Shown here: in pieces, positions 15,711-43,195 of the stretch | How the letters are laid out: the number at the start of each line of letters is the position of its first letter | Position numbering within the stretch: the stretch's first letter is position 1 | Origin: Hyalella azteca | Taxonomy: Eukaryota; Arthropoda; Malacostraca; Amphipoda; Hyalellidae | Direction: 5' to 3' | Assembly (NCBI RefSeq): GCF_000764305.2 | Contig: NW_025932834.1 | Location: 22,765 to 86,764, forward strand | Length of the DNA stretch: 64,000 bases | Position numbers and translations under genes: made by a program | The notes under the pieces: model-generated | What the model was told of the DNA's origin: nothing | Seen by the model: only the letters and a program-made list of their open reading frames with translations | Databases searched by the model: none

Positions 15711-15923
15711 TTAAATGAGCCTTCGAGCTTTAAGCATTTTTTCAAGCTTGGCTATCCTGCTAAGTTCGTGTTCAGGAGAAGCGACGGTAGCGGTGTTGGT
15801 TGTGTTGGTTGTTGTGGTGGTTGAATTGATGGTTGTTGCAGAAGCGTCGGACTCAACCGAGGTGCGTTGTCTGTAGCTCTCTAGCAGCGGTGCTTTATCT
15901 TTGATGCCTCTCAGCTCCAGCAC
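15711..15923 (-). CDS. Vps53: Vps53 last coding exon (21)
   Basis: [20 protein letters not shown], a Thr/Asn-rich linker, then [21 protein letters not shown] and stop. The C-terminal SRI-x-KLEK-x-K motif is typical of Vps53. Two further acceptors 63 and 126 bases upstream are in frame. Confidence 0.93.
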   Translation of the reverse strand: MLELRGIKDKAPLLESYRQRTSVESDASATTINSTTTTTNTTNTATVASPEHELSRIAKLEKMLKARRLI

Positions 15924-18900
15924 CTGCAGGTATTTACTTAATAAACCTGATATTCCGCTATCTTTGATGCCTCTCAGCTCCAGCACCTGTAGGTATTTAC
16001 TTAATAAACCTGATATTCCGCTATCTTTGATGCCTCTCAGCTCCAGCACCTGCAGGTATTTACTTAATAAAGGTATTTACTTAATAATATATCCCGCTAT
16101 CTTTGATGTCCTACAAGTCTTTACCAAAACAAATGCAAACCTATTCCAATATAATGATAGAACCTCTTCAATAGATAATATTGACTTATACTTATCATGT
16201 ATTCTCCTCGGACTTTCTCTCCCAAAGCTGCAGAATGGGACTGTGAAAAAGTGATTGTGAATGAGATTGTGAAAAAGTATTCATAATCTAAGGATTACCA
16301 ACCTGCACGTAAACGCCTGTGTTATCTCGACTGAGCTTACATTTAAATTAGTATTGAATAAATATAACTGTACAAATTCTTGAAAAATATACTGTATGGG
16401 ATGATAGAAGAAAACGAATCATTGTGTGCCCCAAAAATGCGGTGTGTTCTAATGACAATCCTTATATTTACTTGAAAATTTTCCATGTAAATCACCTTTT
16501 GGAAGTCGGCGAGTGAGAGATCAGGCATGAGGCGGATGCTCTTTTCCACCAGCTGCATCGGCGAGCTGTACTCTCCCATCACAACCTGGGCAGAAATTCA
16601 CTTAAAAATATATATCCAATGTAATAATAATAATAATTATCTAGATAGAAACCTAATTAGATAAGTACAACTACAAAATATTATATGAGCCTAGAAAGAA
16701 GCATACTTTAAAAATAACAAGTATAAAAAACCCAGAGGTAATAACAAATAAATATTATATATATATATAAATAAATAAATATTATAGCAATTTGGGCAGA
16801 AAAACAATGCAATGTCTCCATCAGTAAAAAAAGTTGTGTGAAAAACTGTCTGAATCTAGGCATGCATTGCGCAAGTTGGTTATCAATATTAAGTCAGGAA
16901 GTCAAGAGGTAAATAATTTAAAAAATTACAGCATTCTCGTACTTCAATTAATAAATGATAGCGCTTTAAAAACGACGAGTAACGTATCCATAGACTGAAG
17001 ATTACACTCAAAAAACTAACCTGAAGAACGAGTTCAGGGCGCGCGAGGCTCTTGGTAACCATCCTCGTGTAGGATACGGGAGGATCTCGGATCACCTGCG
17101 CGACAAACACACGTTTAGGAAACTCCCCAGCCAAACAAGACCTGCGGATCTGACAAGCAACAAGCACTCAGAGTTCCTTTATTGACAGATGAAAGAGTTT
17201 CCAGAGTTCTTTTCTACGGATTTATTGTTTGATACAAAGGCACCTCTCCCCAAAGGCCCCCCAAAGGATCCCAGAGTTCGTTTAGGGACAGATGAATGAG
17301 TTCCCAGAGTTCCTTTCTACGGATTAATTGTTTGATACAAAGGCACCTCTCCCCAAAGGCCCCCCAAAGGATCCCAGAGGTCGTTTAAGGACACTAACAC
17401 TAAGTCATGCTGCAAGCACCACTTTTGACGGCTACCAAGCGCCGCCCACCAGCGACACTGAGAAATAAAATAAGCTTCCCGAGGCTCGAACCCACGGCTA
17501 GCTCTTCTCATCTCGATGCCGCTACCACTGAGCTACCATAACAATAACAATAATCGAGACAATTATATTCTCCAGCATTGATTTTACTTTGATTAAACTC
17601 TAGTACATGCATTCCTGTGACGTCATAAACTGGCAAAATCAACTGCTATTCGGTCGGCATTTTAGCACACGAGATTGCAAAAAGCCAAAAACATCAATCT
17701 CTTATGAAACTTAGAGATATCAAACACTGCATTAACAGTAATCCTACGGCCTTGAGATATTAACTCTTTTTACCCTGTAATTAGGGTAACAATACCTGTT
17801 GTTACCACATAAATAGCATTGTGAACGCCTTATCATATACGACGTTTATAATATAATATATTTATAATATGCCTTATTATACACGGCTTTTATAACAAAA
17901 TATATTTATAATACGCCTTACTACATACGGCGTTCATAATATAATATATTTATAATACGCCTAATTTTATACGGAGTTTATAATATATTATATTTATAAT
18001 ACCTAATATAAACGTGTGCAATACATAGAACACTAAGTCTCAATATTACATACACACCTTTGAGGCCATGACAGGCATGTGCAGCAGCACCGCCTTGAGA
18101 GCGTGACAGTCTCAATATAAACGNATAAACGTGTCCAGTCTTAAGATAAACGTGTCTAATGTATAGAATAGACACAAGTGTTAACACGACACACCTTTGA
18201 GGCCATGACACACCTTTGAGGCCATGACACACCTTTGAGGCCATGACACACCTTTGAGGCCATGACACACCTTGGAGGCCATGACAGGCATGTGCAGCAG
18301 CACCGCCTTGAGAGCGTGACAGTCCAGCAGCAGCTGCTCGCACCCGATGCTGTTGATGGGCCGACAGCGATACACCTGCACCAGCCAATATTATAGATTA
18401 ATTATGAACATTTAATATTGTACAGCAAATATTATTAGAGGGAATCCTCTATTAATAAAAAAGCAAATAGAGTACTAAAGGATTCCAACTCAAGATGCAT
18501 TTCGGAAGTTAAACTTTGCTCTTTGCTTCAAAAATTACTTTTAATCATGCAGTTATTTTTAAATCTCCGCTTTCTTAATTACTGGGAGTATAAATTGCAC
18601 TAGTAAGTATTTATACGCTACTTTTAACTTTGCGCTTTAACTATGAGTTGATAATAATCTTGCGCCATTGAAGCATCAGTGACGAATAAATTCACGAAAA
18701 TATGAATGTTATCACCTATCTAATTTTCAACAGAAAATAAATTCAGGAAAATATAAATATGATTATGGCAAAATTCGACATGCCAATAGTGAAAGTAGGA
18801 ATTGATTCTAAATTTCATCACATTACTCAACTTCAGCAATTATTCACTTGAAATGAAAGACCTTTTCATCTTAATGCAGAAGAAATTAATTCTAATTGCA

Positions 18901-21900
18901 ATTAAAAGGTGCGAAAAAAGTAGTATAGTAACTAGTAAGGCGGAAAACTGACCTGTTGAGTGAACTTTATGCATATCCCTGCAGCCAGCTTGTCACAAAA
19001 TCTAAAAGAAATAAAACACAATATATTTAAATTATAAAATACAATATATTTTAATAATAAAAACATAATATTCATTAAAAAAAACATACATTGAAACGCA
19101 CGAAAAGATGAATAACCACAGGAGCGACAAAAATACAGGCAGTTGCTGGAACTAGTAATTCCAATATATTTCAACAAGATTTGATCTCATTTTGAATAAA
19201 TATCCGTAGTTAAGATTTGAGGTGATTATCAACACTGAAAAAATCTGGTTCTTGTTTCATTAATAAATTCGTGATCATGTCTTCAATAATAAAATTTTAT
19301 ATACGTAAGTATAGTAATCAGAGGCAGCATCACGGCATTAAATTGTAGCATTACTGCATTGATCATCATTGTATCTGGATTTGAGAAACACTTTATCTAC
19401 TTATTTATTATATAAAAAATATAATGCACACACCTGGTGAAGTGTTCACAGCCACGGTACACACCTGCTGAAGTGTATACAGACACGGTACACACCTGGT
19501 GAAGTGTTTACAGCCACGGTACACACCTGGTGAAGTGTTTACAGACACGGTACACACCTGGTGAAGTGTTTACGTGAGGTGTGGAGATGGTAGCGCACTA
19601 GAGGCACGGTGGTGCTGAGGTGAGCTGAGAGCTGAGACACGTACGAGCTCTGGTCGCCTGTCTGCTCCAGCAGCCAGTTCAGCTTCGGGATGCTCGCCAG
19701 ATATCCATCGCAGAGCGACTCTACGTGGCCCACCAGCAGCAGGATGCACTGCAACAACAATGATAATATGAAATCCCGGTGATAAACTGAAACAACAATG
19801 TGACACTGAGATGCCAATGTGACACTCAGATGCCAATGTGACACCGAAATGCCAATGTGACACCGAAATGCAAATGTAACACTGAGATGCCAAAGTTACA
19901 CTGAAATGCAAATGTGACACTGAAATGCCGATGTTAAACTGAAACACCAAAGTTACACTGAAATGCAAATGTTACACTGAAATGCCCAGGTTATAATGGG
20001 AATTACCATTCGAATTGAAACTGTTACCAGTTACCAGGTATGTAGTCTTAATAAGCGATAAGTGGCAGACAAAAGGCTACATAAGATGCGATCTATGAGG
20101 ACAAGGACACAAAAGAGCTCTGTAATATGTATATAACTGCCTCGCGAAAAGCCGTGACTTTAATCAAAATTTCCCCTCAAATGAATTATATCGCCTTGCT
20201 GACCATTTGCTAAGAAGACAGTGACATTTCAATAATTCTTTGTGCTTCTAGAATTAAACTTGTTATCGAAATACATTGAGTTGAGGCCAGGGTATTGTTA
20301 CCTGAGATAGCACCGCATGAAAAAGTTCCTCTTCTGCAGCCAAAGAAATGTTTGAAGGAGCTGAACTGATGGCACTTGATGCGGAGGCAGCGAGAACTTT
20401 CCGAGGTGCATCTGGATCTGCGAATAAGACCGAGATTACAGATATTGCATAAATCATACACAAAAAAATATAACTCAGTACTCACTGCAGTGAGTGACAG
20501 AGAGCGCATTTTCTCGTCGACGAAAATTTGAGGTCACGGACAGACGGACGGACGGACCTGGCGAGCACAACAGTGCATTTTTTCCATAAATGAGAAAATG
20601 CGCTAAAAAGGCCAAAATTCATATAATGCTGAAGTTTATCATGAGGCCAAGTGACAGCCAAGTGACTTAAAGCCCCTGGTATGGACTTCGGGCCATATAC
20701 CATTTTTCCAACAGTTTGGCCTGCAGTTTGTTGGCCATTATAAACAAGACTCTACACACCTGGTATGGATTTTGGAGCCAACTGCCACTTCAACAGTTTG
20801 GCCTGCAGTTTGTTGGCCATTATAAACAAGACTCTACACACCTGGTGTGGATTTTGGGGCCAACTGCCACTTCTCCAACAGTTTGGCCTGCAGTTTGTTG
20901 GCCGTTTTAAACATGACTCTACACACCTGGTATGGATTTTGGAGCCAACTGCCACTTCAACAGTTTGGCCTGCAGTTTGTTGGCCATTTTAAACATGACT
21001 CTACACACCTGGTATGGATTTAGGGGCCAACTGCCACTTCTCCAGCAGTTTGGCCTGCAGTTTGTTGGTCATGTGGGCGCAGTATTCGGCCGACACCAAC
21101 ACTGAACAAACTTTGCGCACCTCTTCCTCCGAGCTCAGACGCAGACTCTCTCCACCTTCTCGCACCAGTAGAGACTGGACCTGCAACAAACAAATTGTGT
21201 TATGAATTGGCATAATTGCACCCGTTTAGTAAAAGGTGTGATGTATATGCAAAATTGCACTCGTATTAAGTTAAAGTGTGTGATGTAATGTATATGCAAA
21301 ATTGCACCCTTATTAAGTTAAAAGGCGTGATATATTTGCATTATGCACCCGTATTAAGTTAAAAGGCGTGATACACACGCATTATTCCACACTTGCCAAT
21401 GAGGTTTAACGCATAAAATTTCACCCAAGTTATGCTAAACGTCATGATGTATACACTAAGTTCCGCCTTTGCGCACCAACAGAGACAGAAACTGGACCGA
21501 ATAACTAAGTAATGCATATGAAAAATTCCATCTGTTATCAGATATAAAAAAAAATGTCAGCAGAAATTCATGTACTACCTACCTCAAACGCATTGTTTAA
21601 AAAAAACGTTTGAAGTGTTTTTTGTAGTTTACAAAATCTTAAATACGTAGCCTTGATATGCTTGACCACGATTTTCTCCTGAAGCTCACTAATGGTTAAT
21701 GAGACATTAGCTGCTGGTGAGCAATGGTTGATGTTCTGAATGACCGACTAACATAGTCGAGAAACGATCAAACTGCTATATCATGTCTTTAGGAATAGTG
21801 CCAGATACCTGAGAAATCATGGTAAAAATGTCCCATATTGACGAGACATCTGGGTATTGATGAGAGAAATGATGGCACTGATATCTTTCCGTCTTTACGA

Positions 21901-24900
21901 AGAGTGCCACGTACCTGAGAAATGATGGCACTGATATCTTTCCCGTCTTTACGAAGAGTGCCACGTACCTCAGAAATGATGGCACTGATGTCTTTCCCGT
22001 CTTTACGAAGAGTGCCACGTACCTGAGAAATGATGGCACTGATATCTTTTCCGTCTTTACAAAGAGTGCCACGTACCTCAGAAATGATAGCACTGATGTC
22101 TTTCCCGTCTTCACGGAGAGTGCCACGTACCTGAGAAATGATGGCACTGATATCTTTCCCGTCTTCACGGAGAGTGCCACGTACCTGAGAAATGATGGCA
22201 CTAATGTCTTTCATGTCCTTAGGGAGAGTGCCAAAGCCCTGCTGTGATGCCTGAGGCAAAGCTTCCCTCAGGACCCTCGTGGCAAACTCCCGCAGGCGTC
22301 GCTGGAAAATCGCTATGAGATTCGGCAGGCCATAGCCCTGCTGGGACACGCGGAGGTATTCCACCAGCATGTTCTGCAAGACAAAATTATATCTGAACAC
22401 GAAACGATGATCGTTCATGATTGAGTACGTGATCATATTAAAATAGTTGACTTAAAACGCAAGTTAACCTAGAATCCAAAAGTAAAGGTTTTTTACCAGC
22501 ATGTTCTGCAAGATAAAATTATTTCAGAGCACGAAATAGCTATTAGGTACTTGATAATATTAAAATAGTTTAAATAAAACATATGTTAACCTAGAATCAA
22601 AAAGTACCAAAAGTAAAGGTTTTCTATCAGCATGTTCTACGAGACAATGGCAGTTCAGAACAAGGGAAATGAAGTAAGCACTTATGACGAAGCTATGCAG
22701 GAGCATATGTTCAGTCTTAAAATGTCTAGCAAATTACGGAGCAGGCAATAAGTACAGCAGCTATCTCAATCAATCGTCAGTTATGGAAAGATCGGGTTCC
22801 AAAGGCCGGATCCCTTGTGAATCAAGTCACGAAAAGTACAAGAATCGGCAACAGGCCATGGGCCTATTTCTTCAATGCCGACACTTCTATTCTATTCTAT
22901 CGTTAGTTGGTAACATTGCACTTCATTAAATAATTCCAAAGATAAGCTTTTCAATGAAGCAAAGAGCATTTTCGATGAGATATGGGGTCTCGCTTTGCGT
23001 TTAAAATAGCAAGATATAAAAAAATTTACGCCATCTTATACAGCGTGAAGAGTTCACCACAGCACGGCATCACACCGCCTCTCCTCACCTTATACAGCGT
23101 GAAGAGTTCACCACAGCACGGCATCACACCGCCCCTCCTCACCTTATACAGCGTGAAGAGCTCACCACAGCACGGCATCACACCGTCCCTCACCTTATAC
23201 AGCGTGAAGAGCTCACCACAGCACGGCATCACATTGCTCTCCTCTTCTTCCACGCGGTCGAAGCTGTAGCTCTTCACCGCACTCATGAAGCGCTCGATTT
23301 GTTCGCCCAGGCGTCTGTAACATATGTTATCTTAAGCTATTTGTTGCTAGCTAATTTCTTCTAGACGTATTGTTTTTTACTTGAACAGTTATCTCATGTA
23401 GGTGAATAAATCAAATATTACGGATAAGAGACAAAATAAGATAATTATCAAACAAAGAGACAAAATGTGAAAGCAAATTAACATGAGCAATAGGTATAGA
23501 ATTATTGGGTGCATCTGTCAAGCTTAGTGAATAATCATGCAAATGACTGTGATTAATATGTGTAAATGATCACTTAGTATGAATACCGTAAGTATGAATA
23601 CTACATCATGGCTGAATCTAGCGAAATGAAATAGCTAGCGATGAAAAATTCACCGTGCTTTAAATGCAAATAATTGAATCGAAAATGTGATGAAATTTCT
23701 TGAAATGTTTTGTTTATTAAATTCTCAGTTAATTTATGATTTAAACAATTACTAGAGTAATAATAACCAAATAAGATTGTTACTACGACGATATCATCCC
23801 AAGAATGCTATTTGTTCATTACGGTAATTATATGATCGTTCAAGAGCCAATAGAGTGAGCCAATACATTACTTGTCTAAAGTATTAAGGTGATGATCGTT
23901 CATGAACCAATAAGAACATTACTTGTCTAAAGTATTAAGGTGATGATCGTTCATAAGCCAATAAGAACATTACTTGTCTAAAGTATTAAGGTGATGATCG
24001 TTCATAAGCCAATAANTTCATGAGACAATAAAGTGTTATTACTTGTCTAAAGTATTGTGATGATCGTTCATGAGACAATAAAGTGTTATTACTTGTCTAA
24101 AGTATTGTGATGATCGTTCATAAGCCAATAAGAACATTACTTGTCTAAAGTATTGTGATGATCGTTCATGAGACAATAAGAACATTACTTGTCAAAAGTA
24201 TTGTGATGATCGTTCATGAGACAATAAAGTGTTATTACTTGTCTAAAGTATTAAGGTGAATATGAAGGTAAGGCAGGAAGCAGCTTGTTATAGCTCCGTC
24301 GTAAGGGCTCGGCGCAGCAGCAGGGGGAGGCTGGCTGTCTTCCCCGGCATTGCTGTTGCTGGCCGCAACTGAGCTCTGCAAATAACATTAATATATTCAG
24401 AGAGAGTAGGTCAAATGGTTTATTTGAACAGAAAAATACTATTTAAACAACAGAAACACTAAGGTAATAAGTCTGAACAACAACAATATTGTACACACAA
24501 TATGTGTGAAGTTGTGAACAACAATTGCTTGGTAAGAAAAACCCAAACGCCTTAGAATGATGTGTACAAATAGCATTGATTTGAATTGATAGCTATTAAT
24601 CAGTCAGTAAAACCGAAATGTTTATTATAAATAACGAAAACAAACAGAACGCATACAAATACGTCCGCCATGTGCACTGGTTCACATATTCAGTAATTTC
24701 AGCCTCAAGAATTCCACTCGTGACTACTGATGGCTACACAGTATACAGGAACAAAACTCATAGCACTCATGAAATCCTGTAAACAATTTATTTCAGTTAC
24801 CCTGTAACTATAGTAACAAACGAGTAAAATTAGCAGACAATTAATAAAAAATAGTAACAATAAAATAAAATTAGTAAAAAATGGTAACAAATGAGTAAGT

Positions 24901-27900
24901 TAGGGAAAAATAGTAACAAGCAAGTAAAATTAGTGAAAAATAGTGACAAGCAAGTAAAATTAGTGAAAAATAGTAACAAACTAGTTAAATTAGTAAATAC
25001 TAGTAACGCACCACGTCTTCGGAGCGAGGCGTGAAGCGACCAGCAGAAGAGGTGGCGCTAACAGGACTTCTTGGCGAAACATCAGAAGGCTTTGGTAATT
25101 TTTCGTTGCTGTTGTCGAGTAAATCTTCATAAGTGAAGCTGGTGCCGTACTTCTGTATGATCAGACTCTCCATGTCCGACAACAACCTGACAGTAACATA
25201 CCTCTACGGATTAGATAACATAAAAATCATGAACAATTGCATGGCATAGCAAAATAACATAACAAATAGTGCTTTCTTTTCATTCCCGACAACAACACAG
25301 TTTCACAGGTTCTCCACTTCGGCCAATAACTTGACAACAAGAACAAACAAAAAACCTTTGATCATCACAAACATTCATTTGGCACAAATACGTACAAGTC
25401 TGGCTTTTTCATATTCACTATCTGCATAGTCACACAGTCATTTCTCCTCTTCAGAAAACGAAGTAATACAAGCAAGACATAATCTATAATCAAGGAGTAG
25501 GTAATACAAGCAAGACGTAATCTCTAATCGACACGCTCATACTATCATTCAATTGAGTACCTACCTATATTGTGTGTTGTTCGAGCAGAGCTTGAAGAAG
25601 TTCGTGGAACTTAGGAGCAATACGTACAGATGAACTTGCATGCCAATATTTTTGTACATGAACTTCAGTTTAAACATAGGATTCCACCATAGCTAAGAGG
25701 CTCTCTTCCTGTATTTGAATCCCTGCTTATAGTCCACAATAGCTCATGAAGCTATCAGGCAAATTTTTGCATTAATGATCGCGTGTAATTACTGTTCCTG
25801 TACATGAATCTTGGTATGAAGTATTCCATTCTGGCAATTAAATGAGGTTACAGATTACGAAATGAATTATACTGCTTTTTCTGTACATTCCTTACAATTG
25901 TGGCAAAATACATCTGTTTCTGTATATTGAACTGTTTGTACGTAGGACTCCCTGCTGACCTGTGGGCCTGCAGGATGGCGGTGGAGTCGATGTCTGCGGT
26001 GCGCAGCGCCATCGCCTGCGTCAGCTGCTCGTGTGTCAGGCGACAGAAGCTGTACGCCAGGCGAGCAGGTACCTGCACACACACACGTATACAATAACCT
26101 TTATTTAGTATAGGTTGCAGAATTTGTTCTCTTAAGCAGGTTTCATTGAAGACCAGAGAATCTGTTAACTGGTCTTCAATGTAACCTTTATTTATAAACT
26201 AAAAGTGAAGTAAGTAACGTAAGAGACACACATAATACACTGACATATATACTACCGAGGGAACATCTGGGCGAGGAACAGCTCACCTTCCAGCCTGGAG
26301 GGAACATCTGGGCGAGGAACAGCTCACCTTCCAGCCGGGAGGGAACATCTGGGCGAGGAACAGCTCACCTTCCAGCCGGGAGGGAACATCTGGGCGAGTG
26401 TTCTATCGAACTCGACGGCGGCTCTAAGGAACCACTTCCGTCTGAGGTCGACACAGGTGAGCCACCCGTCACGCTCTGAGCCCGCGAACACCGCCCGGTA
26501 CTCAGCCAGCTGGTGCTCCACCACCAGCTCCATGATGCTCCGTCTGGAGGGTGGAGTTCATTAGACTAGTGCTACACCACCAGCTCCATGATGCTCCGTC
26601 TGGAGGGTGGAGTTCATTAGACTAGTGCTCCATTAACAGCTCCATTATGTTCCGTCTGGAGGGTGGACTTCATTAAAACCTCAGGCAATCAAGAGGCAGG
26701 AAATATATTCATTAAAAAAATAAGAGACCCATTCCATCAGAAAATAGGGATCAATTCATCAAAAAATTCAGCAGAGAGGGACTCAGTCCATCAGCAGAAG
26801 AGGGACTCAGTCCATCAGCAGAGAGGGACTCAGTCCATCAGCAGAGAGGGACTCAGTGCATCAGCAGAGAGGGACTCAGTCCATCAGCAGAGAGGGACTC
26901 AGCCCAATACAAGGGAGGGATCAATTGATCAAAAAAGGACTGAATTCATCAAAAGTGCAGTCCATCAAGCTCCGCTGTTCATGCTGAGAGTGAGAAAGTG
27001 GGTCGCTATTTGGACCGGTGACCCATTCACGCACTGACAAGTCAGCTCACCGGACATTCTTGTCAAGGACATTGGCAACGAGGCAAGCCTCTGCCAGCTG
27101 GTAGGACGGCGTTGCTAGGGATGCTGTCGATGATCTGAAGTCTGCCAGGATTTGCTGCTCCAGTTCCTTCTGATTCTGCAGCACCTGGTGAAAAAGCGGC
27201 AATTAATTTTTGTCATAAAATTCATGTATAATATGAAATGAAATGTTGGATTATTCAGCAATGAACAAGAAAGGCTTGACTGATCTGAGACATGCAGCAG
27301 TTAATGACAAAACAGCAATGAATTTTTGCCAAAAAATTTAAGTATGAAATGAAACTAGTTGGATAATTCAGCAACGTACAGGAAAAGGTCACCTGATCTG
27401 AGAGCTGCAGCAGCTGACGACATAACAGCGCTGAATTCCGACCAGAAAATATTTTAATAATATGAAAAGAAACGTGAATAATTCAGCAAAGTAAGAGATA
27501 GTCTCATCCAATCTGAGAGCTGCAGCGCTAATGACGAAACAGCATTGAAGTTTTGACATAGAAATATAATATTATTACTAATATTATTATTAAAATAATA
27601 ATATTATTATTAAAATAACAATATTATTATTAAAATAACAATCTTAAAAGGAACATATATAATTAAATTCTCACCTGATCAGAGAGCTGTTTGACCTGCG
27701 GGATGTGGGTGTAGCGTGACAGATGCTGCATCACGTTCAGCACGCCCTGCAGCAGCGGTGCCAGCTCACCATACTGCCGTGCTGCCATCATGCTCCTGAG
27801 GAGAACAGTGCTGATCATTACACGTTAACTGTAAATTGGGCCATTTTTATGCGTGTCAATGATTACTTCCTATTGTTACTTATGTGGCATTTTTTGCTCA

Positions 27901-30523
27901 GAAGCAATACTTGGCACAAATTACAATAAAAAGCATATAAATCACAATTTACTTTTCAATTTTTGTTCCTAAAATATCTGTGTGAACACAAGGGGTTTGT
28001 TTCATTATTGGTTAAATGCAAGGCCCAATGTATTCATGAAGAGGATAAAATCATAAAAAGTTACAACTAACAATGATATCTTTTTTATTTATTAGCACAA
28101 AATACAAAAGTTGTATTATCCAAATTAGTGCAACTTTAACCTTGGTTATAAACACAAAATTTTAAATCAAAAACCTTATTTTGTCGACGCCCTCGGTAAG
28201 CATCTGCAGGTGGTTGAGAGTATTGATAGAGGTCGTGAGGTTTCGCTTGCCAGTATCCAGCTGGCGGATGTCGCGGGTTATGGCTCGCACTCGCTGTTCA
28301 GACTCTCCAGATGTCACCTGAAACAAGGAAGTCACTTTTGTACAAGCAATGCTAACTTGTAAGTTGTCACCAGAGACACGTAAGTCACAGCCTATCCACT
28401 CTATAGTAATTTGCATCTATCCAGAGGTCACCTGAGACAGGCAAGTTACCCCCTATAAACTCAATACTAATTTGCAACTATCCAGAGGTCACCTGAGACA
28501 TGCAAGACACACCCTATACACTCAATACTAATTTGCAATTATATACAGGTTACTCAACTGGAATTAGCTGATTGTGCTAAAAAAAGTAATGGTAGAATTT
28601 ATTGTGAAATGTTTCAATAACATCAGGTTGCTTCCATAAATGATTCAATAACAGTGTAATACATAAATAATTGACTGCCATCGCCATTTCAAATGCATTT
28701 CTGAGAAAAAAAAAGGCTGCAGTTTTTAACATCAATTGCTTTGAAAGCTATTTAAAAAGATTTTATTTAAGGTGCCAACTGGACTCGGTGTGGAAGTAAT
28801 TATTTTTCATAGATAGTTACACACCTTAATTTCTTGAAACCTGGCTGAAAGTTGCCGAATGGACTCTTCTGCACTCTGTAGTGAATCTTGCCCAATCTGA
28901 AACAAATCTTAAGTGTAATATTAAAAACATCTTAATAATTCTGTTTGTAAATTACAGAATAAAATGATTGACAGACCTACACAAATGTTAAGAGGATTTA
29001 TATGATTGAGGTTGTCTGGAGTCTAAACTTGGCTAAACTCATATCATCTAGTGCTCAAATTGATTATGGTCTACCTCCTAGTTCAAGCTATAGTTCCTAG
29101 CTGAAGGTTTTAGTGTGAGTCTCAAGTTTGAAAATTAAGTAAAAGGCATAAGTTCAAGGCCTAAGCTTACAATATAAGTGTAAAGTTGAAGTTTGAGGCC
29201 TAAATGAAGAGCTCAAGGTTAAGGTCTAAGCATAGGGCTCAAGTTCAAGGCCCAAGTGAAGGACTCAAGTTCAAGAATTAATTAAATACAGCGCTTATGT
29301 CTCAGACTAAAGTAAAGGGGATTACATTTAAGGCTTCAGTTTGAGGCTCCTTACTTGTGAGTTGATAGCCAGCTGCCTGACCAGCTGCTGGGTTTCATTC
29401 TCAACCAAGGAGAGCTTCACCCTCATCTCCTCGAGGACCTCATCCAGCAGATGCAGGGACTGCTCGGCAGGAAACCTCTCATTGATGTAGTCCACTGCAT
29501 TGAAGTCAGGGGAGTCAAAAGGATCTTCTCCAGGTACTATCTGAAAAAATTAACCACAATAAACAACAAAATAAATAATTTCTCTTTAGTTGTTAATATA
29601 ATCAATGATTAATTTGTTTAGAAAATATTTTTACTACAAATAATTATGATCCAATGAAGAACTTCAGAAGAGTTGCATACAAAATTTGTAAACTTTAAAA
29701 GCAATAATTTATATTTTAATCAAGAAGATTGATATGTTTCTTTCAGTGGACACATTCAGAACACAAATTAGTAATCTTGGGCTGCGCTGTTAACATTTTA
29801 GGTGTGTTTGAGTTTTGGGCTGTGTTGTTTGAAAGATTTTTTGCCTGATTTATTCTGTAATGTGAATAATTTCAAAAATAAATGACATAAGATGAATGAT
29901 ATTTGTTCTGAGGAGTACACATGAAAATACAGAAAAGTTTGATCAATAGAGGAGTAGAGAATTTTTTTTATAAAATGAAATCTAATGTGGAAGGAGTATG
30001 TACCTACAAAAAAAAAAGGGGTAATTTTCTATTATAGGTATTACACATGTCTGTAGCAGGGATGAAGGAATAACTAAAGTAAAGTGATAGTATAATTATC
30101 CACAAAATGCCTTAAATCTTATATAGTACGGTACCGTACATATGATATCTAGGTAGGTACCGTACAGAGTTTGGAAAAGGGATAGTATGAAATTTTATAC
30201 AAGAATACATATGCTACAAAGCATCAACTTCAATTCAGTTAACAGGAAAGCACAATGAGATCCATCTCATAATATTCTCATTAACAAGACTGCTGGGTGC
30301 TAACTATACAGTTGATTAATATCACAAGCATTCAACTTCATCACACATTTCATTAAAAATGCTGCTTACATTCTACTAAAAATTTACAGATATCAATAAT
30401 TAATATAATTATTATTACCTCTTGTATGGCAGCAATAACAGATTTTGAATATTGTAGAGGCAGTTCTTCTGTGTTGATATCAGTATCATCATTTGAGCCT
30501 AATTCTGATATCAACTGAGACAT
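15711..30523 (-). CDS. Vps53: Vps53, GARP/EARP tethering complex subunit (whole gene)
   Basis: Twenty-one coding exons on the minus strand join in phase into 908 codons plus stop. Order: 30523-30419, 29540-29355, 28896-28825, 28317-28175, 27795-27675, 27184-27051, 26543-26369, 26072-25960, 25609-25565, 25186-25012, 24375-24239, 23314-23194, 22373-22185, 21180-21009, 20417-20302, 19748-19558, 19001-18953, 18375-18271, 17095-17021, 16585-16496, 15923-15711. Family-diagnostic stretches include [102 protein letters not shown] and the tail [17 protein letters not shown]. Vps53 acts at the trans-Golgi and recycling endosomes, tethering endosome-derived vesicles. A Ser/Pro/Ala-rich insert (exons 10-11) makes it somewhat longer than vertebrate Vps53. 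Many junctions are embedded in tandem repeats; see the exon entries. Confidence 0.95.
15908..16085. repeat. 63-bp in-frame array of the exon 21 acceptor
   Basis: Three acceptors (exon-side bases 15923, 15986, 16049), CCTGCAG|GTGCTGGAG or CCTACAG|GTGCTGGAG. The inter-acceptor sequence is open and encodes [19 protein letters not shown] + LQ, so upstream acceptors would add 21 or 42 residues. A partial fourth unit lies at 16065-16085. Confidence 0.92.
16496..16585 (-). CDS. Vps53: Vps53 coding exon 20
   Basis: [20 protein letters not shown] + [10 protein letters not shown], 30 codons, phase 0 to 0. Donor AAAAG|GTGATT. Confidence 0.92.
17021..17095 (-). CDS. Vps53: Vps53 coding exon 19
   Basis: [20 protein letters not shown] + ELVLQ, 25 codons, phase 0 to 0. 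Corresponds to the K-A-P-A-S-Y-T-K-I-V helix of other Vps53 proteins. Confidence 0.92.
17168..17400. repeat. ~113-bp direct duplication in Vps53 intron 18
   Basis: Two copies of a segment with TACAAAGGCACCTCTCCCCA and AAGGCCCCCCAAAGGATCCC, preceded by AGAGTTCCTTT. Wholly intronic. Confidence 0.88.
17810..18000. repeat. AT-rich ~35-38-bp array in Vps53 intron 18
   Basis: Four to five units of TACGGCGTTTATAATATAAT + ATATTTATAATACGCCTTA. Confidence 0.8.
18054..18110 (-). pseudogene. Orphan 3'-half copy of Vps53 exon 18
   Basis: Repeats the last 52 or so bases of exon 18 ([18 protein letters not shown]) plus its donor, 160-220 bases downstream in the intron, with no convincing acceptor. It looks like another round of the junction duplication. 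A lone N lies at 18124 just beyond it. Confidence 0.8.
18185..18280. repeat. 19-bp array of the exon 18 donor, five copies
   Basis: ACACCTTTGAGGCCATGAC at exact 19-base steps from 18191 to 18267. Each carries minus-strand GCCTC(A/C)AAG|GTGTGT. Period out of frame. Confidence 0.93.
18271..18375 (-). CDS. Vps53: Vps53 coding exon 18
   Basis: [35 protein letters not shown]. 35 codons, phase 0 to 0, covering the conserved G-x-E-Q-L-L-L-D motif. Confidence 0.93.
18953..19001 (-). CDS. Vps53: Vps53 coding exon 17
   Basis: Short exon [17 protein letters not shown], 49 bases, phase 2 to 0, with TTTTAG acceptor and CAACAG|GTCAGT donor. Confidence 0.9.
19428..19572. repeat. 31-bp array of the exon 16 donor, five copies
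   Basis: ACACACCTGGTGAAGTGTTT-type units at exact 31-base steps (CACCT at 19431, 19462, 19493, 19524, 19555). Each gives a minus-strand CACTTCACCAG|GTGTGT. One copy (19462) has CAGCAG|GTGTGT. 31 is out of frame. Confidence 0.93.
19558..19748 (-). CDS. Vps53: Vps53 coding exon 16
   Basis: [56 protein letters not shown]. The G-D-Q-S-x-Y-V motif is diagnostic. Phase 0 to 2, donor ACCAG|GTGTGT. Confidence 0.95.
19790..19995. repeat. 17-18-bp array upstream of exon 16
   Basis: About a dozen copies of GAAATGCCAATGTGACACT variants in intron 15. It does not contain the exon 16 acceptor. Confidence 0.9.
20302..20417 (-). CDS. Vps53: Vps53 coding exon 15
   Basis: Completes a D codon, then [35 protein letters not shown]. 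116 bases, phase 1 to 0. The helix corresponds to the family's ISSSIQLLVQDLD segment. Confidence 0.88.
20459..20590. repeat. Dispersed repeat copy C (inverted relative to 1-130)
   Basis: Contains GTCGACGAGAAAATGCGCTC in reverse orientation and the ACTGAGTTATATTTTTTTGTG tail shared with the start of the window. It lies in Vps53 intron 14. Confidence 0.6.
20675..21075. repeat. 82-85-bp array of the exon 14 3' end and donor
   Basis: Five units (donor-side bases near 21009, 20927, 20842, 20760 and a decayed one near 20677). Each repeats the last 60 or so coding bases of exon 14 ([22 protein letters not shown]) plus CCAG|GTGTGTAG. The period is not a multiple of three and TAG follows the donor, so extra copies are non-coding. 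Confidence 0.9.
21009..21180 (-). CDS. Vps53: Vps53 coding exon 14
   Basis: [57 protein letters not shown], phase 0 to 1. The VSAEYC...LQAKL helix is the central Vps53 signature. Confidence 0.93.
21195..21400. repeat. ~55-bp degenerate array in Vps53 intron 13
   Basis: Three to four units of TATGCAAAATTGCACCCGTA + TTAAGTTAAAAGGCGTGA. Confidence 0.75.
21888..22230. repeat. 54-bp in-frame array of the exon 13 donor, six copies
   Basis: Donors of the form CAG|GTACGTGG or GAG|GTACGTGG recur at exact 54-base steps (exon-side bases 22185, 22131, 22077, 22023, 21969, 21915). The coding frame is open throughout and repeats an 18-residue peptide [18 protein letters not shown]. Single-base variants (Q/E, R/K) distinguish the copies. 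Confidence 0.93.
22185..22373 (-). CDS. Vps53: Vps53 coding exon 13
   Basis: [40 protein letters not shown] and KDISAIISQ. 63 codons, phase 0 to 0, matching the family's FQKYLREYAWKI-like helix. The donor CTCAG|GTACGT is the first of six equivalent donors. Confidence 0.9.
22485..22650. repeat. Decayed duplication of the exon 13 acceptor side
   Basis: CAGCATGTTCTGCAAGA(C/T)AAAATTAT recurs at 22365 and 22498, and in weaker form at 22628. The first copy spans the exon 13 acceptor (TTGCAG|AACATGCTG). Period about 130 bases. Confidence 0.65.
23035..23235. repeat. 51-54-bp in-frame array at the exon 12 donor
   Basis: Four copies of a unit that includes the exon end. Three carry TATAAG|GTGAGG. In the distal copy (23035) the donor is lost (AAGATGG). 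The frame stays open across the array and repeats [18 protein letters not shown], so each donor choice would add 17 or 35 residues. Confidence 0.9.
23194..23314 (-). CDS. Vps53: Vps53 coding exon 12
   Basis: [19 protein letters not shown], an acidic EEEES run and [14 protein letters not shown]. The donor TATAAG|GTGAGG is repeated downstream at 23143 and 23089, adding 51 or 105 bases in frame. Confidence 0.93.
23868..24255. repeat. 48-51-bp array of the exon 11 donor, eight copies
   Basis: TTACTTGTCTAAAGTATT-containing units start at 23868, 23919, 23970, 24039, 24089, 24137, 24185 and 24235. Each has the minus-strand exon end plus donor (AATACTTTAGACAA|GTAAT). A TAA follows at once in frame, so read-through is not coding. 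An N at 24016 and the 69-base step suggest a local assembly problem. Confidence 0.9.
24239..24375 (-). CDS. Vps53: Vps53 coding exon 11
   Basis: Ser/Asn/Pro/Ala-rich start, then the conserved [20 protein letters not shown] + D-K. The donor GACAA|GTAATA is non-consensus at -1 but is the only one in phase (2), and the next exon restores K-R-L-G-E-Q-I. Confidence 0.88.
24870..25005. repeat. 27-bp array downstream of exon 10
   Basis: Four to five copies of AAATAGTAACAAGCAAGTAA + AATTAGTG abutting the exon 10 donor without including it. Confidence 0.8.
25012..25186 (-). CDS. Vps53: Vps53 coding exon 10
   Basis: [20 protein letters not shown], then a Ser/Pro-rich low-complexity part ([16 protein letters not shown]) ending SEDV. 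Donor GACGTG|GTGCGT is the best choice that keeps phase 0. This lineage-specific disordered loop lies between the two halves of the protein. Confidence 0.85.
25565..25609 (-). CDS. Vps53: Vps53 coding exon 9 (45-bp microexon)
   Basis: Encodes [15 protein letters not shown] with split codons at both ends (phase 2 to 2). It fills the place of the conserved T-N-F segment that follows the I-x-x-x-H/R helix in other Vps53 proteins. Acceptor CCTAAG lacks a good pyrimidine tract, so this exon is less certain than its neighbours. Confidence 0.7.
   Translation of the reverse strand, partial: FHELLQALLEQHTI
25960..26072 (-). CDS. Vps53: Vps53 coding exon 8
   Basis: [20 protein letters not shown] then [17 protein letters not shown]. 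113 bases, phase 0 to 2. Acceptor TGTGCAG, donor CACAG|GTCAGC. Confidence 0.93.
26259..26370. repeat. 41-bp array at the exon 7 donor
   Basis: Three copies of GGGAACATCTGGGCGAGGAA + CAGCTCACCTTCCAGCC-type sequence. On the minus strand each carries GGCTGGAAG|GTGAGC. 41 is not a multiple of three, so distal donors would shift the frame. Reading through reaches TGA at the next donor. Confidence 0.9.
26369..26543 (-). CDS. Vps53: Vps53 coding exon 7
   Basis: [15 protein letters not shown] start, then [20 protein letters not shown] and [11 protein letters not shown]. Both ends are duplicated. The acceptor region recurs at 56-bp steps (exon-side bases 26599 and 26655) and the donor region at 41-bp steps (copies next to 26322 and 26281). 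I chose the pair that keeps phase (2 to 0). Confidence 0.9.
26525..26680. repeat. 56-bp array at the exon 7 acceptor
   Basis: Three copies of CCATGATGCTCCGTCTGGAG + GGTGGAGTTCATTAGACTAGTG. Each contains the minus-strand acceptor CCTCCAG|ACGGA. The third copy is slightly decayed. Confidence 0.88.
26755..26945. repeat. 23-bp minisatellite in Vps53 intron 6
   Basis: About seven copies of GAGAGGGACTCAGTCCATCA + GCA. Wholly intronic. The 124-codon open frame over it is repeat-derived. Confidence 0.9.
27051..27184 (-). CDS. Vps53: Vps53 coding exon 6
   Basis: [16 protein letters not shown] followed by a short Ser/Thr insert and [15 protein letters not shown]. 134 bases, phase 0 to 2, donor TCCG|GTGAGC. 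Confidence 0.93.
27190..27545. repeat. ~110-bp degenerate array in Vps53 intron 5
   Basis: Three to four diverged units, each with GATCTGAGAGCTGCAGCAGC-like sequence. On the minus strand that segment resembles the exon 5 end plus donor (for example CTCTCAGATCAG|GTGACC near 27393). It appears to be decayed duplication of the exon 5 donor region. Confidence 0.5.
27675..27795 (-). CDS. Vps53: Vps53 coding exon 5
   Basis: Arg completed across the junction, then [20 protein letters not shown] and [20 protein letters not shown]. 121 bases, phase 2 to 0, donor GATCAG|GTGAGA. Confidence 0.93.
28175..28317 (-). CDS. Vps53: Vps53 coding exon 4
   Basis: Encodes [20 protein letters not shown] onward, including [13 protein letters not shown], the best conserved part of the Vps53 N domain. 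Ends phase 2 at ATAAG|GTTTTT. Acceptor copies occur upstream in the intron (see the 28317-28540 array). Confidence 0.95.
28300..28540. repeat. Tandem array carrying copies of the exon 4 acceptor
   Basis: Units of about 57-61 bases. Two well-preserved copies repeat the acceptor and first codons (minus strand TCTCAG|GTGACCTCTGG, exon-side bases at 28431 and 28492), and a decayed copy lies at about 28373. In the copies the reading frame hits TAG after V-T-S-G, so only the authentic acceptor at 28317 continues the protein. Confidence 0.8.
28825..28896 (-). CDS. Vps53: Vps53 coding exon 3
   Basis: 24 codons ([20 protein letters not shown] + QEIK), matching the coiled coil of the family. TTTCAG acceptor and AAG|GTGTGT donor. 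Confidence 0.9.
29355..29540 (-). CDS. Vps53: Vps53 coding exon 2
   Basis: 62 codons, phase 0 to 0. Encodes the conserved N-terminal FNAVDYIN...FPAEQSL motif and the following coiled-coil segment ([19 protein letters not shown]). Confidence 0.95.
30419..30523 (-). CDS. Vps53: Vps53 coding exon 1
   Basis: Begins [17 protein letters not shown]; 35 codons, phase 0, donor CAAGAG|GTAATA. A TTGCTTTTCAG at 30593-30584 would place an acceptor about 60 bases upstream of the ATG, so a separate 5' UTR exon is likely. Confidence 0.88.
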
Positions 30524-35981: not shown

Positions 35982-36144
35982 GTTATTGAGGTCGAAAAAG
36001 TCGACGTGGACGTCGTAGTGGCCTCCCACGCCGTAGTTGAGGACGTGCAAGTCCTCGGCCTTGGTCGTGGACAAGCCCGTCATGCTCGCGACACGGCGCA
36101 CCACGGCGTCCACTGTCCTGCTGCGTCCAGAGCTCACCCACGCG
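35982..36144 (-). CDS. P4HA coding exon 7 (HxD iron-binding motif)
   Basis: AWVSSGRSRTVDAVVRRVAS, MTGLSTTKAEDLHVLNYGVG, GHYDVHVDFFDLNN. The His and Asp of HVD are present. Donor AATAAC|GTGAGG, phase 2 to 0, so at least one more exon is expected. Confidence 0.92.
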
Positions 36145-39100
36145 CTGCCGGTACAAATATTGCAAAATTCAAATTGAACAAAATTCCAGATCAGATATAT
36201 GCCCCAAGAATATTCTGATAAACTTTATCATTTCTTGCTATTATTTTCATAATAGATTAACATCAAGATACACATTCCTTCATGCGTGGCCTGTGCAGCA
36301 TATTTATAGTTTCTGTAGGGTGCACTCGAAGAAAATTCCTATACTTGAAGTTGTTTCCTAACTGACTCACGTTTTTCCGATCCTAGCGAGAGACTTCATT
36401 TTCTTGTGTGTAACGAAAGAATGGACTTCTGTGGTCTGGAGTTCAGGCTCCGCTAAGCGTTTAATTTCAGCGATTTCTGCGTCGCTGACGACGTCCCTGA
36501 AGAGGAGGATGGCCGGGTCCGGCCACACGAGTTCCGCTTTGAAGCGCAGCAAGGCACCGTAGGGCACGGCCTCGTGGACGTAGCCGCAGTGCTGGGAGGA
36601 CAGCACCTCTGACGACTGCCGACGTTATTCAGTTAAGTCAAAGTTAATTTAAATTGGTCCGTGAATTGAGAATTGCGGACTAACTTTTTACCAATGAGAA
36701 CCTCGAATATCGGTGAAATCTTGTAGGTACAAGAATTTAAATCCTTATTAATTTATTAGTTATATTAACCTCATTCTACGTTATTTTTACTTGGGATACA
36801 TTTATCAATTTGAAGATATTAATACATTGGAAATTACGTTAACAAAAGCAATAGCTCGCTGCGTTGAGCCTTGTGCCTGCGGTGCATCCAGCTCAGTACT
36901 CGAATTGAATTTAGGGACAAGCTAAACTTCAATATCACAATTATTGATATCGAATCATGCAGTAAAAATACTAAGCTTCCAAAATTTCCTGATTTTCTGC
37001 ACCCATATTACCTGAAATATTTTAATTGGATGTGCAACGGATATTAGAATTGTTCACTAATTGTTCACCTGGAGCATCTCTCCCCGACAGAGGCGGTGGT
37101 AGTTGTCTGTGAGCTGGTCGACATGTTCGCTGCCGTCGCGCATCGAATAAATCGTCTTCTGGAAACTCCCTGGAATGCCCATCCCGGAGAATTCATCAAG
37201 CACCTGCTCCGAAGCTTCCTTGGCCAGTGTTTCTACCATCTGCCTCTGAAATTGAAAATATTGGTAGTTTCATATACAACGTCATCTGCTCACTCGACGG
37301 CTAATTTGCCGATTGTTTATGAAATGTAGGGTGTTTCTTGCTCCAGGAAATTACTGCTTGATCTGTTGAAATATCATATTAGTTTTTCACGGCATTAAAC
37401 GAGTTTATGAAGCGAATTAAGTTTAAGAAATTTTGGAACAGTATTAGAACAAATTAGCCAAGTTTTGGGGTGTAAAACAAGTAATCCCGCGCTACAAATG
37501 AAGCAAGGAAGAATCAAGAAAGGAAATAATATTATTGTTTTTCTCATTTTACTGTCTGGAAAATCATGAAATTCTTGATACTCTTTTTATTTGAATTCAG
37601 TTAAATGAACATGCAGTACTTCTTTATTCTAAATAATGCTTCTGCTTTAAATACCGCGNGCTTTCCATTACCAACCGATCACCACCGTTGTCAGAGCAAA
37701 TCTCTTCTTGCCCTTCATTTGTTTTAACTGTTTACAAAATAAAAATAATAAATTTTATCCCGTTTAAGAAAATGAAGCACTTAATTAAGACAGACCATTT
37801 TTCTGCGCTTGTTCATAGCCTGGACAGTCTCGTGGAGCTTGCGGTTCTCCGCGGCAGAGAGCACGCGCTTCTCACGCAGCAGAGTCAGGCCGCGCTGCGT
37901 CCAGCGCTCGCTCAGGTCGAATTCCAAGTTGACGAAACTTTGCTGCCCGAAGCGCAAGCAATCCTCAGCTGTCAATTTGGTGTCAAATTATCAGTGAATC
38001 TCGAATATTTGAATGCTATGAATTTTTCCGGCACCATTAATAATTGAATGCAAGGCTTTTTGGGCAGTACAAGTTATGCGTCGTATTTTTAATGTGAGCA
38101 TCGGTTTCATCAGAAAGAATTAATTTAAAGTGATTTGTTCCTTGTTGACCTCAAAAGTTTAGATAAAACATAACAGAAAGTTTATCATGGATATAACTGA
38201 GGCGCATAAATGTGTTCACAGTTGATATAAATAAAACCTTACATTATAACCCAGGAAAATGGATCAGGATTTTACCAGTTAGATGAGAGGCTTGAGGAGC
38301 ATCCAAGATCCTCCCCTGGAGGAGTTCCTCGAAGGGCAGGTCATAGGTGTCCTGGAGACGCACTAGTGCCAGCGCCGCCCCATTCAGGTCGTCTTCCTTG
38401 GGGAGCGTCAAGCCCTCCTTCACTGACGCCAGGCGACGTCGTACATCTGCATCATCGTGACCAAACCAACGGCCGGTAGATGTTGCGTTAGTAATTTGCT
38501 GAATTATTCGTTAGGATTTACTGTTGACTAAGTAGATAAGTTAACAAATTATCGTTGAACGAGATATTACTTGCAACTTAATTTATTTATAAAAAATATA
38601 AGTTATATTACCGAGATGCTAGATGAAAGTAAATACCTCTGATTTGGTCGACTGAGTCGATAGCATCCAGCACGTCGCTGTAGTCGAGAGTGAGGCGTCG
38701 CAACAGATGGTAACTCGCGACAGGATTACTCAGCTGACTGCTGCTGTCTTTACTCCATCCATCAACATATCTGAGGTGAATAAGAAGGCTGATGTGTGCC
38801 TTGATGTAAGGATAGTAATAAAAAACCGTTTTAATGATCTTAAACAAATTAAAAAACCCCACAATACCAAATACTATAAAACAATTTTAAAAAACATGCA
38901 AATTTACCCTATACTGTAAAAAACAATATAATCTAATAATAAATAACGAGAAGCATTGCTTGATTAACAGTAAATTACGACTAATAACAATAATATCAAT
39001 AACTACCAACATATAGCTTAGCCATAACACACTTAAAGAACTGCGCATGTAGCAGTTACTTCAAGAAATGCTCATCTCGCAGACGAAAAATAACGTAAAA

Positions 39101-39722
39101 TTCTTATGTTGATTTCCTAACAAACGTGTCGGAGTGCCACGTTGAGCACGGGAAAATACAATATACATAATAAAAATTATGTGGAAGTGAAATAACTCAA
39201 AGATGCGACGCTTCTCAGGATTATCTTCATGGCTCAAATTCACAACTACATTGAATTGAAAAGTAAGTGAACTTTCAGTAAAAAAAATACTAAAATGACA
39301 TATACCCGGCCCGGCAATTCAAGGACACAAGTCCCGGCACGCTGACAGGCACTCAAGTCCCATGCAGCACGCCAAAAAAGACTCAAGTCCCGGCACGCCG
39401 CTTCTCAGGATTATCTTCATGGCTCAAATTCACAACTACATTGAATTGAAAAGTAAGTGAACTTTCAGTAAAAAAAATACTAAAATGACATATATATAGG
39501 CGCTTTCTGCAAAATTCAAGCACGTTACCTCCTGACAGTGTCGAGCCTGCGGTCTTGCTGCTGCAGGTGCTCACGAAGGACAGCAACGACCTCGTCTTCC
39601 ACTTCCGCCAGTCGCACGACTGACGAAGCTGACGTGTGCACATCACCGATGCCCGCAGCGCACTGTTCAAAAATCGCCAGTGCCATGCAAGAAAAACTGA
39701 AAAGCCTCATGTAATTGCCCAT
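35982..39722 (-). CDS. Prolyl 4-hydroxylase alpha subunit, C-terminus not found
   Basis: Seven phased exons: 39722-39529, 38770-38637, 38446-38276, 37968-37796, 37245-37069, 36615-36371, 36144-35982 (419 codons). The product has a signal peptide (MRLFSFSCMALAIFEQCAAG), the P4HA N-terminal coiled region, the TPR-type peptide-binding domain (GAALALVRLQDTYDLP, LTAEDCLRFGQQSF), YHRLCRGE, and the start of the double-stranded beta-helix fold with DPAILLFRDVVSDAEIAEIK and NYGVGGHYDVHVDFF. The HVD pair supplies the first two iron ligands. Family members are ER 2-oxoglutarate/Fe(II) dioxygenases that hydroxylate collagen proline in an alpha2beta2 complex with PDI. The remaining ~105 residues, with the distal iron His and the 2-oxoglutarate Lys, could not be located down to 33700. 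Confidence 0.88.
36371..36615 (-). CDS. P4HA coding exon 6
   Basis: Begins SSEVLSSQHCGYVHEAVPYG and contains LVWPDPAILLFRDVVSDAEI, AEIKRLAEPEL, the entry to the catalytic domain. Phase 0 to 2. Donor AAAAC|GTGAGT. Confidence 0.9.
37069..37245 (-). CDS. P4HA coding exon 5
   Basis: RQMVETLAKEASEQVLDEF then DQLTDNYHRLCRGEMLQ. L-C-R-G-E is invariant in animal P4HA proteins. Phase 0 to 0. Confidence 0.9.
37796..37968 (-). CDS. P4HA coding exon 4 (peptide-binding domain)
   Basis: A-E-D-C-L-R-F-G-Q-Q-S-F, then WTQRGLTLLREKRVL, the TPR-like substrate-binding helices. Phase 1 to 0. Donor AAAATG|GTCTGT is acceptable but not strong. Confidence 0.85.
38276..38446 (-). CDS. P4HA coding exon 3
   Basis: DVRRRLASVKEGLTLPKEDD, LNGAALALVRLQDTYDLPFE. 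The G-A-A-x-A-L-x-R-L-Q-D-T-Y motif is the strongest family signature here. Phase 1 to 1. Confidence 0.93.
38637..38770 (-). CDS. P4HA coding exon 2
   Basis: RYVDGWSKDSSSQLSNPVAS + YHLLRRLTLDYSDVLDAIDS, matching the family's K-x-W...HPVNAYKLVKRL segment. Phase 2 to 1. Confidence 0.88.
39208..39495. repeat. Direct duplication split by a 96-bp insert
   Basis: Two ~95-base copies of a CGCTTCTCAGGATTATCTTC...AAAATGACATATA segment (about 39208-39303 and 39399-39494) flank a GC-rich block 39304-39399 that also occurs, apparently identically, at 43698-43793. Located in P4HA intron 1. Confidence 0.88.
39529..39722 (-). CDS. P4HA coding exon 1
   Basis: Two candidate starts: MGNYMRLF (39722) and MRLFSF (39710). 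The latter gives a cleaner signal peptide. Continues VVRLAEVEDEVVAVLREHL and QQQDRRLDTVR. Donor AGGAG|GTAACG, phase 2. Confidence 0.85.
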
Positions 39723-39982
39723 TGCCAAATACTCGTGACGATCATTTAATTGATAATTTCACTTCCCAATTTTGTGATCACTTGTTAGTTTTTCAATGCA
39801 ATATTTCCGCAAGTCAGTAGAACAACGTACAGTAAAAAGATATGGAATAACCTTATATTTATTAAGGAAATGGTGCGAGCGACGCTACTGGTTGCGGCAA
39901 AGGTGCGTGCGGAATTGAGGTGCGATTCAGCGGCAGCGCGCGGAGCCGCCTGCCGGCGCACGCACCGCGTCCGAGGCCGTGG

Positions 39983-42770: not shown

Positions 42771-42849
42771 CTGTAATCCGATCGGACGGCAAGATTTTCT
42801 TCTTTGCCGGAAATTTCCGGGAGCTTCGAACTGAAGCATCGGTCGTGAG

Positions 42850-43195
42850 CATCGCTCGGAAGAATTGGCCGGATGCACCGGTCGGGAGCATCAGTCGTAA
42901 GCATCGGTCGGGAGAATCTGTCGGGAGCATCGGTCGGGAGCATCGGTCGGGAGAATCGGTCGGGAGCATTGGTACGAAGCATCGGTCGGGAGCATTGGTC
43001 GGGAGAATCGGTCGGGAGCATTAGTACGAAGCATCGGTCGGGAGCATTGGTCCGAAGCATAGGTCGGAAGTATCGGTCGGAGCATCAATCAGGAGCATCG
43101 GTCGGCTGCATCGTTCGGAGGCATCGGTCGGAATCATCGGTCGGGAGCATCGGTCGGGAGCATCGGTCGGGAGCGTCAGTCAGAAGCATCGGCAA
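42850..43195. repeat. 13-bp minisatellite
   Basis: About 26 units of AGCATCGGTCGGG with variants (AGAATCGGTCGGG, AGCATTGGTACGA). Because 13 is prime to 3, several frames are open for over 100 codons. These are not treated as genes. Confidence 0.95.

Follow-up and report, generated by a model that had tools for sequence, protein, structure and literature searches.

Tandem arrays spanning exon–intron junctions of Vps53 in the amphipod Hyalella azteca

What places tandem arrays across the splice junctions of a conserved gene, and which of the resulting splice-site copies enters the message? The question is raised by a gene at 15711–30523 on the minus strand of a 64-kb stretch of DNA (here called the window) from the amphipod Hyalella azteca (genome paper, Poynton 2018). 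We identified the gene as Vps53 on the basis of the Pfam domains Vps53_N and VPS53_C and of protein matching, the best match being H. azteca Vps53 isoform X2 (892 residues; P0001), itself a database prediction. The gene was modelled by hand as 21 exons, bounded by GT/AG splice sites and joined in a continuous reading frame, giving 40 internal exon edges with exon 9 included (38 in the annotated 20-exon isoform). When exon 9 was skipped and the exon 10 donor moved 3 bp upstream (25015), the translation was identical to all 892 residues of P0001, so that, apart from exon 9, the edges on which the analysis rests match an independent annotation. That annotation, a predicted protein, takes the exon-proximal copy at every array of the gene. 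Exon 9 (25565–25609) has GT/AG sites and is missing from P0001 and from five other aligned crustacean Vps53 proteins; it is probably an alternative exon or no exon at all.

Arrays and their junction copies

Arrays were called with Tandem Repeats Finder (TRF), which gave 84 rows in the window that merge to 56 arrays, 19 of them in Vps53. Nine edges of the gene lie inside nine TRF arrays, with 14–64 bases of array on the exon side: both edges of exon 7, the donors of exons 11, 12, 13, 14, 16 and 18, and the exon 21 acceptor. A tenth TRF overlap, at the exon 6 acceptor, includes 9 exon bases only, and the exon 4 acceptor lies just beyond the TRF limits (20/24 match at 114 bp; copied in the adjoining array). 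As a second measure, we took for each edge the best ungapped match, within 500 bp, to a 24-base segment with that edge at its centre; 11/40 edges (7/20 donors and 4/20 acceptors) reached at least 20/24, and no position did so in five mononucleotide shuffles of Vps53, so the repeats themselves are not a product of chance. These 11 comprise the exon 13 acceptor and the ten edges that the first-pass annotation had placed in tandem arrays, all ten of which were confirmed by TRF or alignment with the junction inside the repeat unit; the periods reported there agree with TRF. Of the two edges it had described as decayed, the exon 13 acceptor is a good case (22/24 at 132 bp) and the exon 5 donor a weaker one (18/24 at 282 bp).

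The arrays, all on the minus strand with the gene, are given here in the order of the exons. Exon 4 has an acceptor array of period 61 (28304–28542; TRF call at 28366–28542, exon copy joined by alignment) with three upstream acceptor copies, two of which keep AG. Intron 5 contains decayed 113-bp units (27176–27685) with copies that resemble the exon 5 donor (18/24) and, weakly, the exon 6 acceptor (15/24); to the eye, the units at 27176–27675 seem to run from the exon 5 end through a short intron into the beginning of exon 6, as though an entire small intron had been copied several times together with its flanking exon ends. Exon 7 is flanked by an acceptor array of period 56 (26513–26675) with two decoy acceptors, one identical over 32/32 bases, and a donor array of period 41 (26257–26398) with two decoy donors, one identical over 27/27 bases (TRF and alignment for both). 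Seven decoy donors follow exon 11 in an array with periods 48 and 51 (23865–24252; TRF, alignment); a single N at 24016 separates the 51-bp from the 48-bp units, and the true length there is uncertain. The exon 12 donor array (23035–23244; TRF, alignment, translation) has units of 51/54 bp and an open frame, and two of its three decoys keep GT. Upstream of exon 13, two acceptor copies, both with AG, lie at 132 and 263 bp (22370–22650; seen by alignment, with no TRF call), and downstream a donor array of period 54 (21864–22233; TRF, alignment, translation) has 6.9 units and a frame open through five decoys.

The remaining donor arrays belong to exon 14 (20675–21072; period 82–85; four decoys, three keeping GT), exon 16 (19428–19573; period 31; four decoys) and exon 18 (18188–18286; period 19; four decoys), each called by TRF and aligned. 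Exon 21 has an acceptor array of period 63 (15896–16087; TRF, alignment, translation) with two decoy acceptors and an open frame. Intron 18 also holds, at 18052–18124 and near a single N at 18124, a 54-base copy (53/54) of the 3′ part of exon 18, 213 bp away; this copy stems either from an earlier junction duplication of greater length or from a haplotype left unmerged.

Donors and acceptors are thus both hit (seven donors and two acceptors by TRF, with the acceptors of exons 4 and 13 added by alignment). Five junctions have at least one decoy that matches the functional site at every base compared: the exon 7 donor (copy at +41), the exon 7 acceptor (−56), the exon 13 donor (+54, +162 and +270), the exon 16 donor (+31 and +62) and the exon 21 acceptor (−126). 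The periods of the junction repeats span 19 to 132, with unit lengths unrelated between loci. An introner-like repeat family common to the introns was rejected, because inspection showed different consensus units and periods from one array to the next; these differences, together with an array at another junction in the amphipod Trinorchestia (see below), bear out the earlier view of the arrays as independent events. Array expansion, that is, extra copies, accounts for ~2.9 of the 12.1 kb of Vps53 intron, which supports the proposed growth of introns from the exon boundary as a consequence of the duplications.

Placement of arrays and base composition

Whether the arrays are concentrated at junctions, as the first-pass annotation had proposed, depends on the null. 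The comparison it had named beforehand as a refutation test, carried out here within Vps53 only, gave no excess: 11/40 edges (27.5%) are in arrays compared with 25.4% of intron positions (those at least 30 bp from an edge). This equality speaks against a mutational process directed at junctions, such as template switching at AG|GT motifs or co-transcriptional breakage, that would create arrays there beyond what base composition would bring. As a null, however, coverage is weak: every copy of an intronic array adds to the count, whereas an edge array adds only at the place where it began. We therefore counted each array as a single birth, took the introns at their pre-expansion size (~9.2 of 12.1 kb) and found 9 edge arrays among 17 against 2.5 expected (P = 1.4 × 10−4). 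Adding the decayed edge cases gave 12/20 against 3.45 expected (P = 8 × 10−6), in favour of junction targeting, and counting them as intronic together with two more intronic units gave 9/22 against 3.65 expected (P = 0.004). These birth counts omit a weak repeat in exon 21 (15793–15836), split the array at 27176–27646 by hand and use a hand-set list of eight intronic arrays. Counted by births there is an excess at edges, and counted by coverage there is none, so that the claim of non-random placement is only partly supported.

The same tendency is stronger among high-identity arrays (at least 90% matches and a score of at least 100). In Vps53, 9/11 of these span an edge compared with 19% expected (P = 1 × 10−5; merged arrays, a count that leaves out the intronic array 27580–27646), or 9/12 if that array is kept unmerged (P = 4 × 10−5). 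Without weighting for GC, both figures would argue for junction targeting. None of the 11 lies in an exon interior, and across exon interiors 6.4% of positions are repetitive compared with 25.4% in introns. Vps53 was singled out for its striking appearance, which weakens the case for junction targeting. Repeat density from intron 3 of Vps53 onward is higher than in most of the window, and local variation in it is large, as introns 4, 8, 17 and 19 are almost free of arrays.

Base composition takes up much of the excess. The GC content of Vps53 is 54% in exons and 35% in introns. Outside Vps53, all eight high-identity arrays in the window exceed 40% GC (mean, 0.51), compared with ~60% of array-free 50-bp windows below 40% GC (P = 0.0008, a bias that rests on 7–8 arrays). 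When arrays outside the gene are taken regardless of age, they show no enrichment in GC (n = 34, period at least 15; mean, 0.379 versus 0.377 in the flanks); a simple GC bias of all arrays was therefore rejected against the background outside the gene, and the bias was kept for high-identity arrays only. Even these are not GC-rich without exception, because the intronic Vps53 array 27580–27646 has 4% GC. With rates taken from outside Vps53, GC weighting raises the expected edge share from 19% to 48–51% at the main setting, for which P, obtained post hoc, is 0.024–0.040 for 9/11 and 0.056–0.088 for 9/12, the latter with array 27580–27646 counted. Across seven settings with merged arrays, which again leave out that array, the expected edge share is 25–50% and P is 0.002–0.034; six of the seven settings leave out the other edge array, at 47529. 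GC weighting also predicts ~1.6 exon-interior arrays per edge array.

GC therefore explains much of the edge excess. After weighting, there may be a modest excess of arrays at edges, in a gene picked post hoc and with few arrays behind the GC rates. This residual, nominally significant in all seven merged settings, counts in favour of junction targeting; given how much of the excess GC takes and the loss of nominal significance at the main setting once array 27580–27646 is counted, we do not regard a junction-targeted process as demonstrated and think it unlikely.

Elsewhere in the window, the array at 47529 is a 116-bp tandem duplication of two copies (47529–47757, plus strand; TRF) in a probable second gene, and holds the end of a probable exon with its GT donor. 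The probable exon (47417–47605, plus strand), with its donor inside the duplication, was recognized from an open frame and AG/GT only, and a protein search with the gene found no homologue at E 0.001. The neighbour of Vps53, a prolyl 4-hydroxylase alpha gene at 35982–39758 (minus strand), has 0/13 approximate edges in arrays, which is uninformative because only 7.3% of its intron is repetitive. Searching the window by tblastn with four crustacean relatives found no C-terminal prolyl 4-hydroxylase exons, and none of the 25 database matches to the protein came from Hyalella. The first intron of this gene contains an exact 90-base repeat (39209–39298 and 39399–39488, 190 bp apart). Long GC-rich minisatellites lie outside any definable gene at 62322–62617 (20 bp × 15) and 42835–43192 (13 bp × 28), and a 264-base gap (2237–2500) separates two high-identity arrays whose true lengths there are uncertain. 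Neither an Rfam match at gathering score nor a tRNA was found in the window.

We favour, with moderate confidence, a GC-biased birth of minisatellites that are purged in exons and tolerated across junctions, where the exon-proximal copy is spliced and the introns lengthen. The sequence shows that segments of ~19–116 bp spanning an exon–intron junction were duplicated in tandem, and the unrelated units support many independent events. New short arrays in this region would be born mainly in GC-rich DNA, to judge from the few arrays available, and exons are the GC-rich parts of this otherwise AT-rich gene. Arrays inside exons would alter the protein and be removed by selection, which is consistent with their scarcity in exon interiors. 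Junction arrays would be tolerated since splicing would continue at the copy that adjoins the intact exon, a choice that the annotation supports; the other copies would leave as intron, and introns would therefore lengthen from the exon boundary. Such a process would give intron lengthening a visible, recent and measurable mechanism.

Decoy splice sites

The copies carry splice signals of their own, and the first-pass annotation had listed selection for redundant sites as one possibility; on this reading, extra donors would provide robust splicing or regulated isoforms. Among decoy donors listed downstream of their exons (one weak upstream row for exon 18 excluded), 28/30 keep GT; this is in line with such selection but is also largely expected because the arrays are young. 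In 8/11 tested edge arrays, splicing at most or all of the decoys would bring in a premature stop; exon 18 is among these, with a single in-frame decoy out of four. The arrays of exons 12, 13 and 21 differ in that most or all decoys would add sequence in frame, and these open frames would suit redundant sites. The unit is a multiple of three in 4/11 edge arrays, close to the one third expected by chance. Coding selection on the arrays was rejected: despite the open frames at exons 12, 13 and 21, 7/11 units are not multiples of three and stops predominate. Because decoys mostly give premature stops, wide use of them would be unlikely as judged from the sequence.

Constraint on the copied sites was assessed by comparing each with its proximal copy. 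Over all aligned copies, 20/324 splice-site cells differ from the proximal copy compared with 313/1666 elsewhere (P = 2 × 10−9), a contrast that shared history confounds and ragged array ends inflate. Once the ragged copies were taken out, 2/63 columns of the donor 9-mer were variable compared with 40/263 elsewhere (P = 0.010) and 15/104 nearby (P = 0.019); among decoys alone, the figures are 2/63 and 28/263. For this test, one distal or ragged copy was dropped at each of exons 4, 12, 13, 14, 16, 18 and 21 and two at exon 11; the exon 7 arrays were used with every copy, and the acceptors of exons 6 and 13 were left out. The Fisher tests are exploratory and uncorrected, and treat columns as independent although one array shares a single history. 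Neutral copies do not predict lower variation at donor sites, a point against the favoured reading and in keeping with redundant sites. Against such redundancy, the annotated protein takes the proximal copy only, and splicing at the others would mostly yield a truncated product. Selection that keeps redundant sites was not established, and we consider it quite improbable.

A bias in persistence, by which edge arrays stay recognizable for longer because only the exon-proximal copy is under coding constraint and should diverge more slowly from its neighbours—so that an even birth rate looks biased—is very improbable on the identities themselves: edge arrays have higher identity and are not older, with 9/9 TRF edge arrays at or above 90% matches at a score of at least 100, compared with 2/10 of the remaining merged Vps53 arrays (3 counting 27580–27646).

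If tolerance of junction arrays does depend on the exon-proximal copy, and that copy alone is used, position or exon context rather than site strength would decide at the five junctions that have identical decoys. A tentative extension is that, across amphipods, young GC-rich minisatellites are born at exon ends so frequently that boundary-anchored tandem duplication is a main route of intron growth, and that the spliceosome picks the exon-proximal among otherwise identical sites; we hold this to be possible, though on balance doubtful. If true, such amphipod genes would be naturally occurring tests of competition between splice sites that differ in position alone.

Other amphipods and known systems

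Among the 90 Vps53 relatives returned, one has a long tandem peptide repeat, that of the amphipod Trinorchestia longiramus (1001 residues); the only other relative flagged in the repeat scan has a short serine-rich stretch. The Trinorchestia repeat consists of six copies of a 12-residue unit, after which the beginning of exon 6 reads as the opening of a seventh, and sits exactly between the residues encoded by Hyalella exons 5 and 6. The simplest reading, made at the protein level, is that an acceptor-spanning 36-bp array was translated by the gene predictor. Intron 5 of Hyalella, the same intron, carries a different, decayed 113-bp unit; as the units differ, junction arrays appear to have arisen separately in the two amphipods, which would have been hit at different junctions of one gene. 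The Trinorchestia gene model thus carries a warning for annotation, as it appears to render a junction array as six peptide copies. Tandem repeats make up 6.18% of the Trinorchestia genome according to the available text of its genome paper. The Trinorchestia array aside, alignment with five other crustacean Vps53 proteins revealed neither inserted nor missing residues at the array sites in predicted Hyalella Vps53.

The Trinorchestia case also bears on whether a short-read assembly could have duplicated or mis-sized the junction sequence. Single Ns in or beside two arrays (24016 and 18124) and the gap at 2237–2500 between two others are what such an artefact might leave, and one amphioxus tandem duplication of this kind is described, in the parts of the literature available, as aberrantly assembled in the draft genome. 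However, most Hyalella copies carry substitutions or indels of their own, which duplicated reads would not readily give, Trinorchestia has a junction array in Vps53 at the protein level in a separate assembly, and the available text on the lancelet PGBD5 case reports support from re-sequencing data. An artefact is therefore very doubtful as the source of the arrays.

Several known systems resemble the Hyalella arrays in part. Introners, dispersed elements that generate introns, would be expected to form one shared family, whereas the Hyalella units differ by inspection. Intron gain by tandem duplication, described in the available portions of reports on Drosophila (PMC2891723) and potato RdRp (PMC4974935), likewise involves the duplication of sequence with splice signals; in Hyalella Vps53, by contrast, no new intron is evident from the protein alignment. 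In human duplicated genes, internal tandem repeats at exon–intron boundaries can create introns or alternative splicing, according to the sections available (PMC2812944). Those repeats, too, are minisatellite units at exon–intron boundaries that alter introns, but the genes concerned are recent paralogues, whereas in Hyalella existing introns of a conserved gene are lengthened.

The closest likeness is to the 'mirages' of amphioxus, for which the founding paper is Canestro 2002. As described in the text available (PMC3087553 and PMC3902484), mirages are minisatellite-like tandem duplications of an intron–exon boundary, at donors or acceptors, in the genes for Adh3, the globins BflGb6 and BflGb9, troponin C and PGBD5. 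Their units are 10–72 and 150–160 bp, many copies have AG/GT signals, and splicing is reported to be undisturbed, with length and somatic instability also reported. The Hyalella units similarly span the boundary and hold exon and intron sequence at the nine TRF edges, most of their copies keep splice signals, with only the gene-proximal boundary in the predicted message, and both donors and acceptors are affected with unit lengths unrelated between loci. On this sequence evidence, the Vps53 arrays are of the mirage type already described in amphioxus, and the pattern is not new as a kind. In the open-licence literature searched, as far as its available text extends, including the Trinorchestia and Parhyale genome papers, we met no mirages in crustaceans. 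Unlike the amphioxus cases, those of Hyalella, known here from sequence alone, are in a crustacean and affect ten to twelve edges of one gene. They would extend mirages from lancelets to arthropods and so provide another animal group for the study of intron growth and of the choice between identical splice sites.
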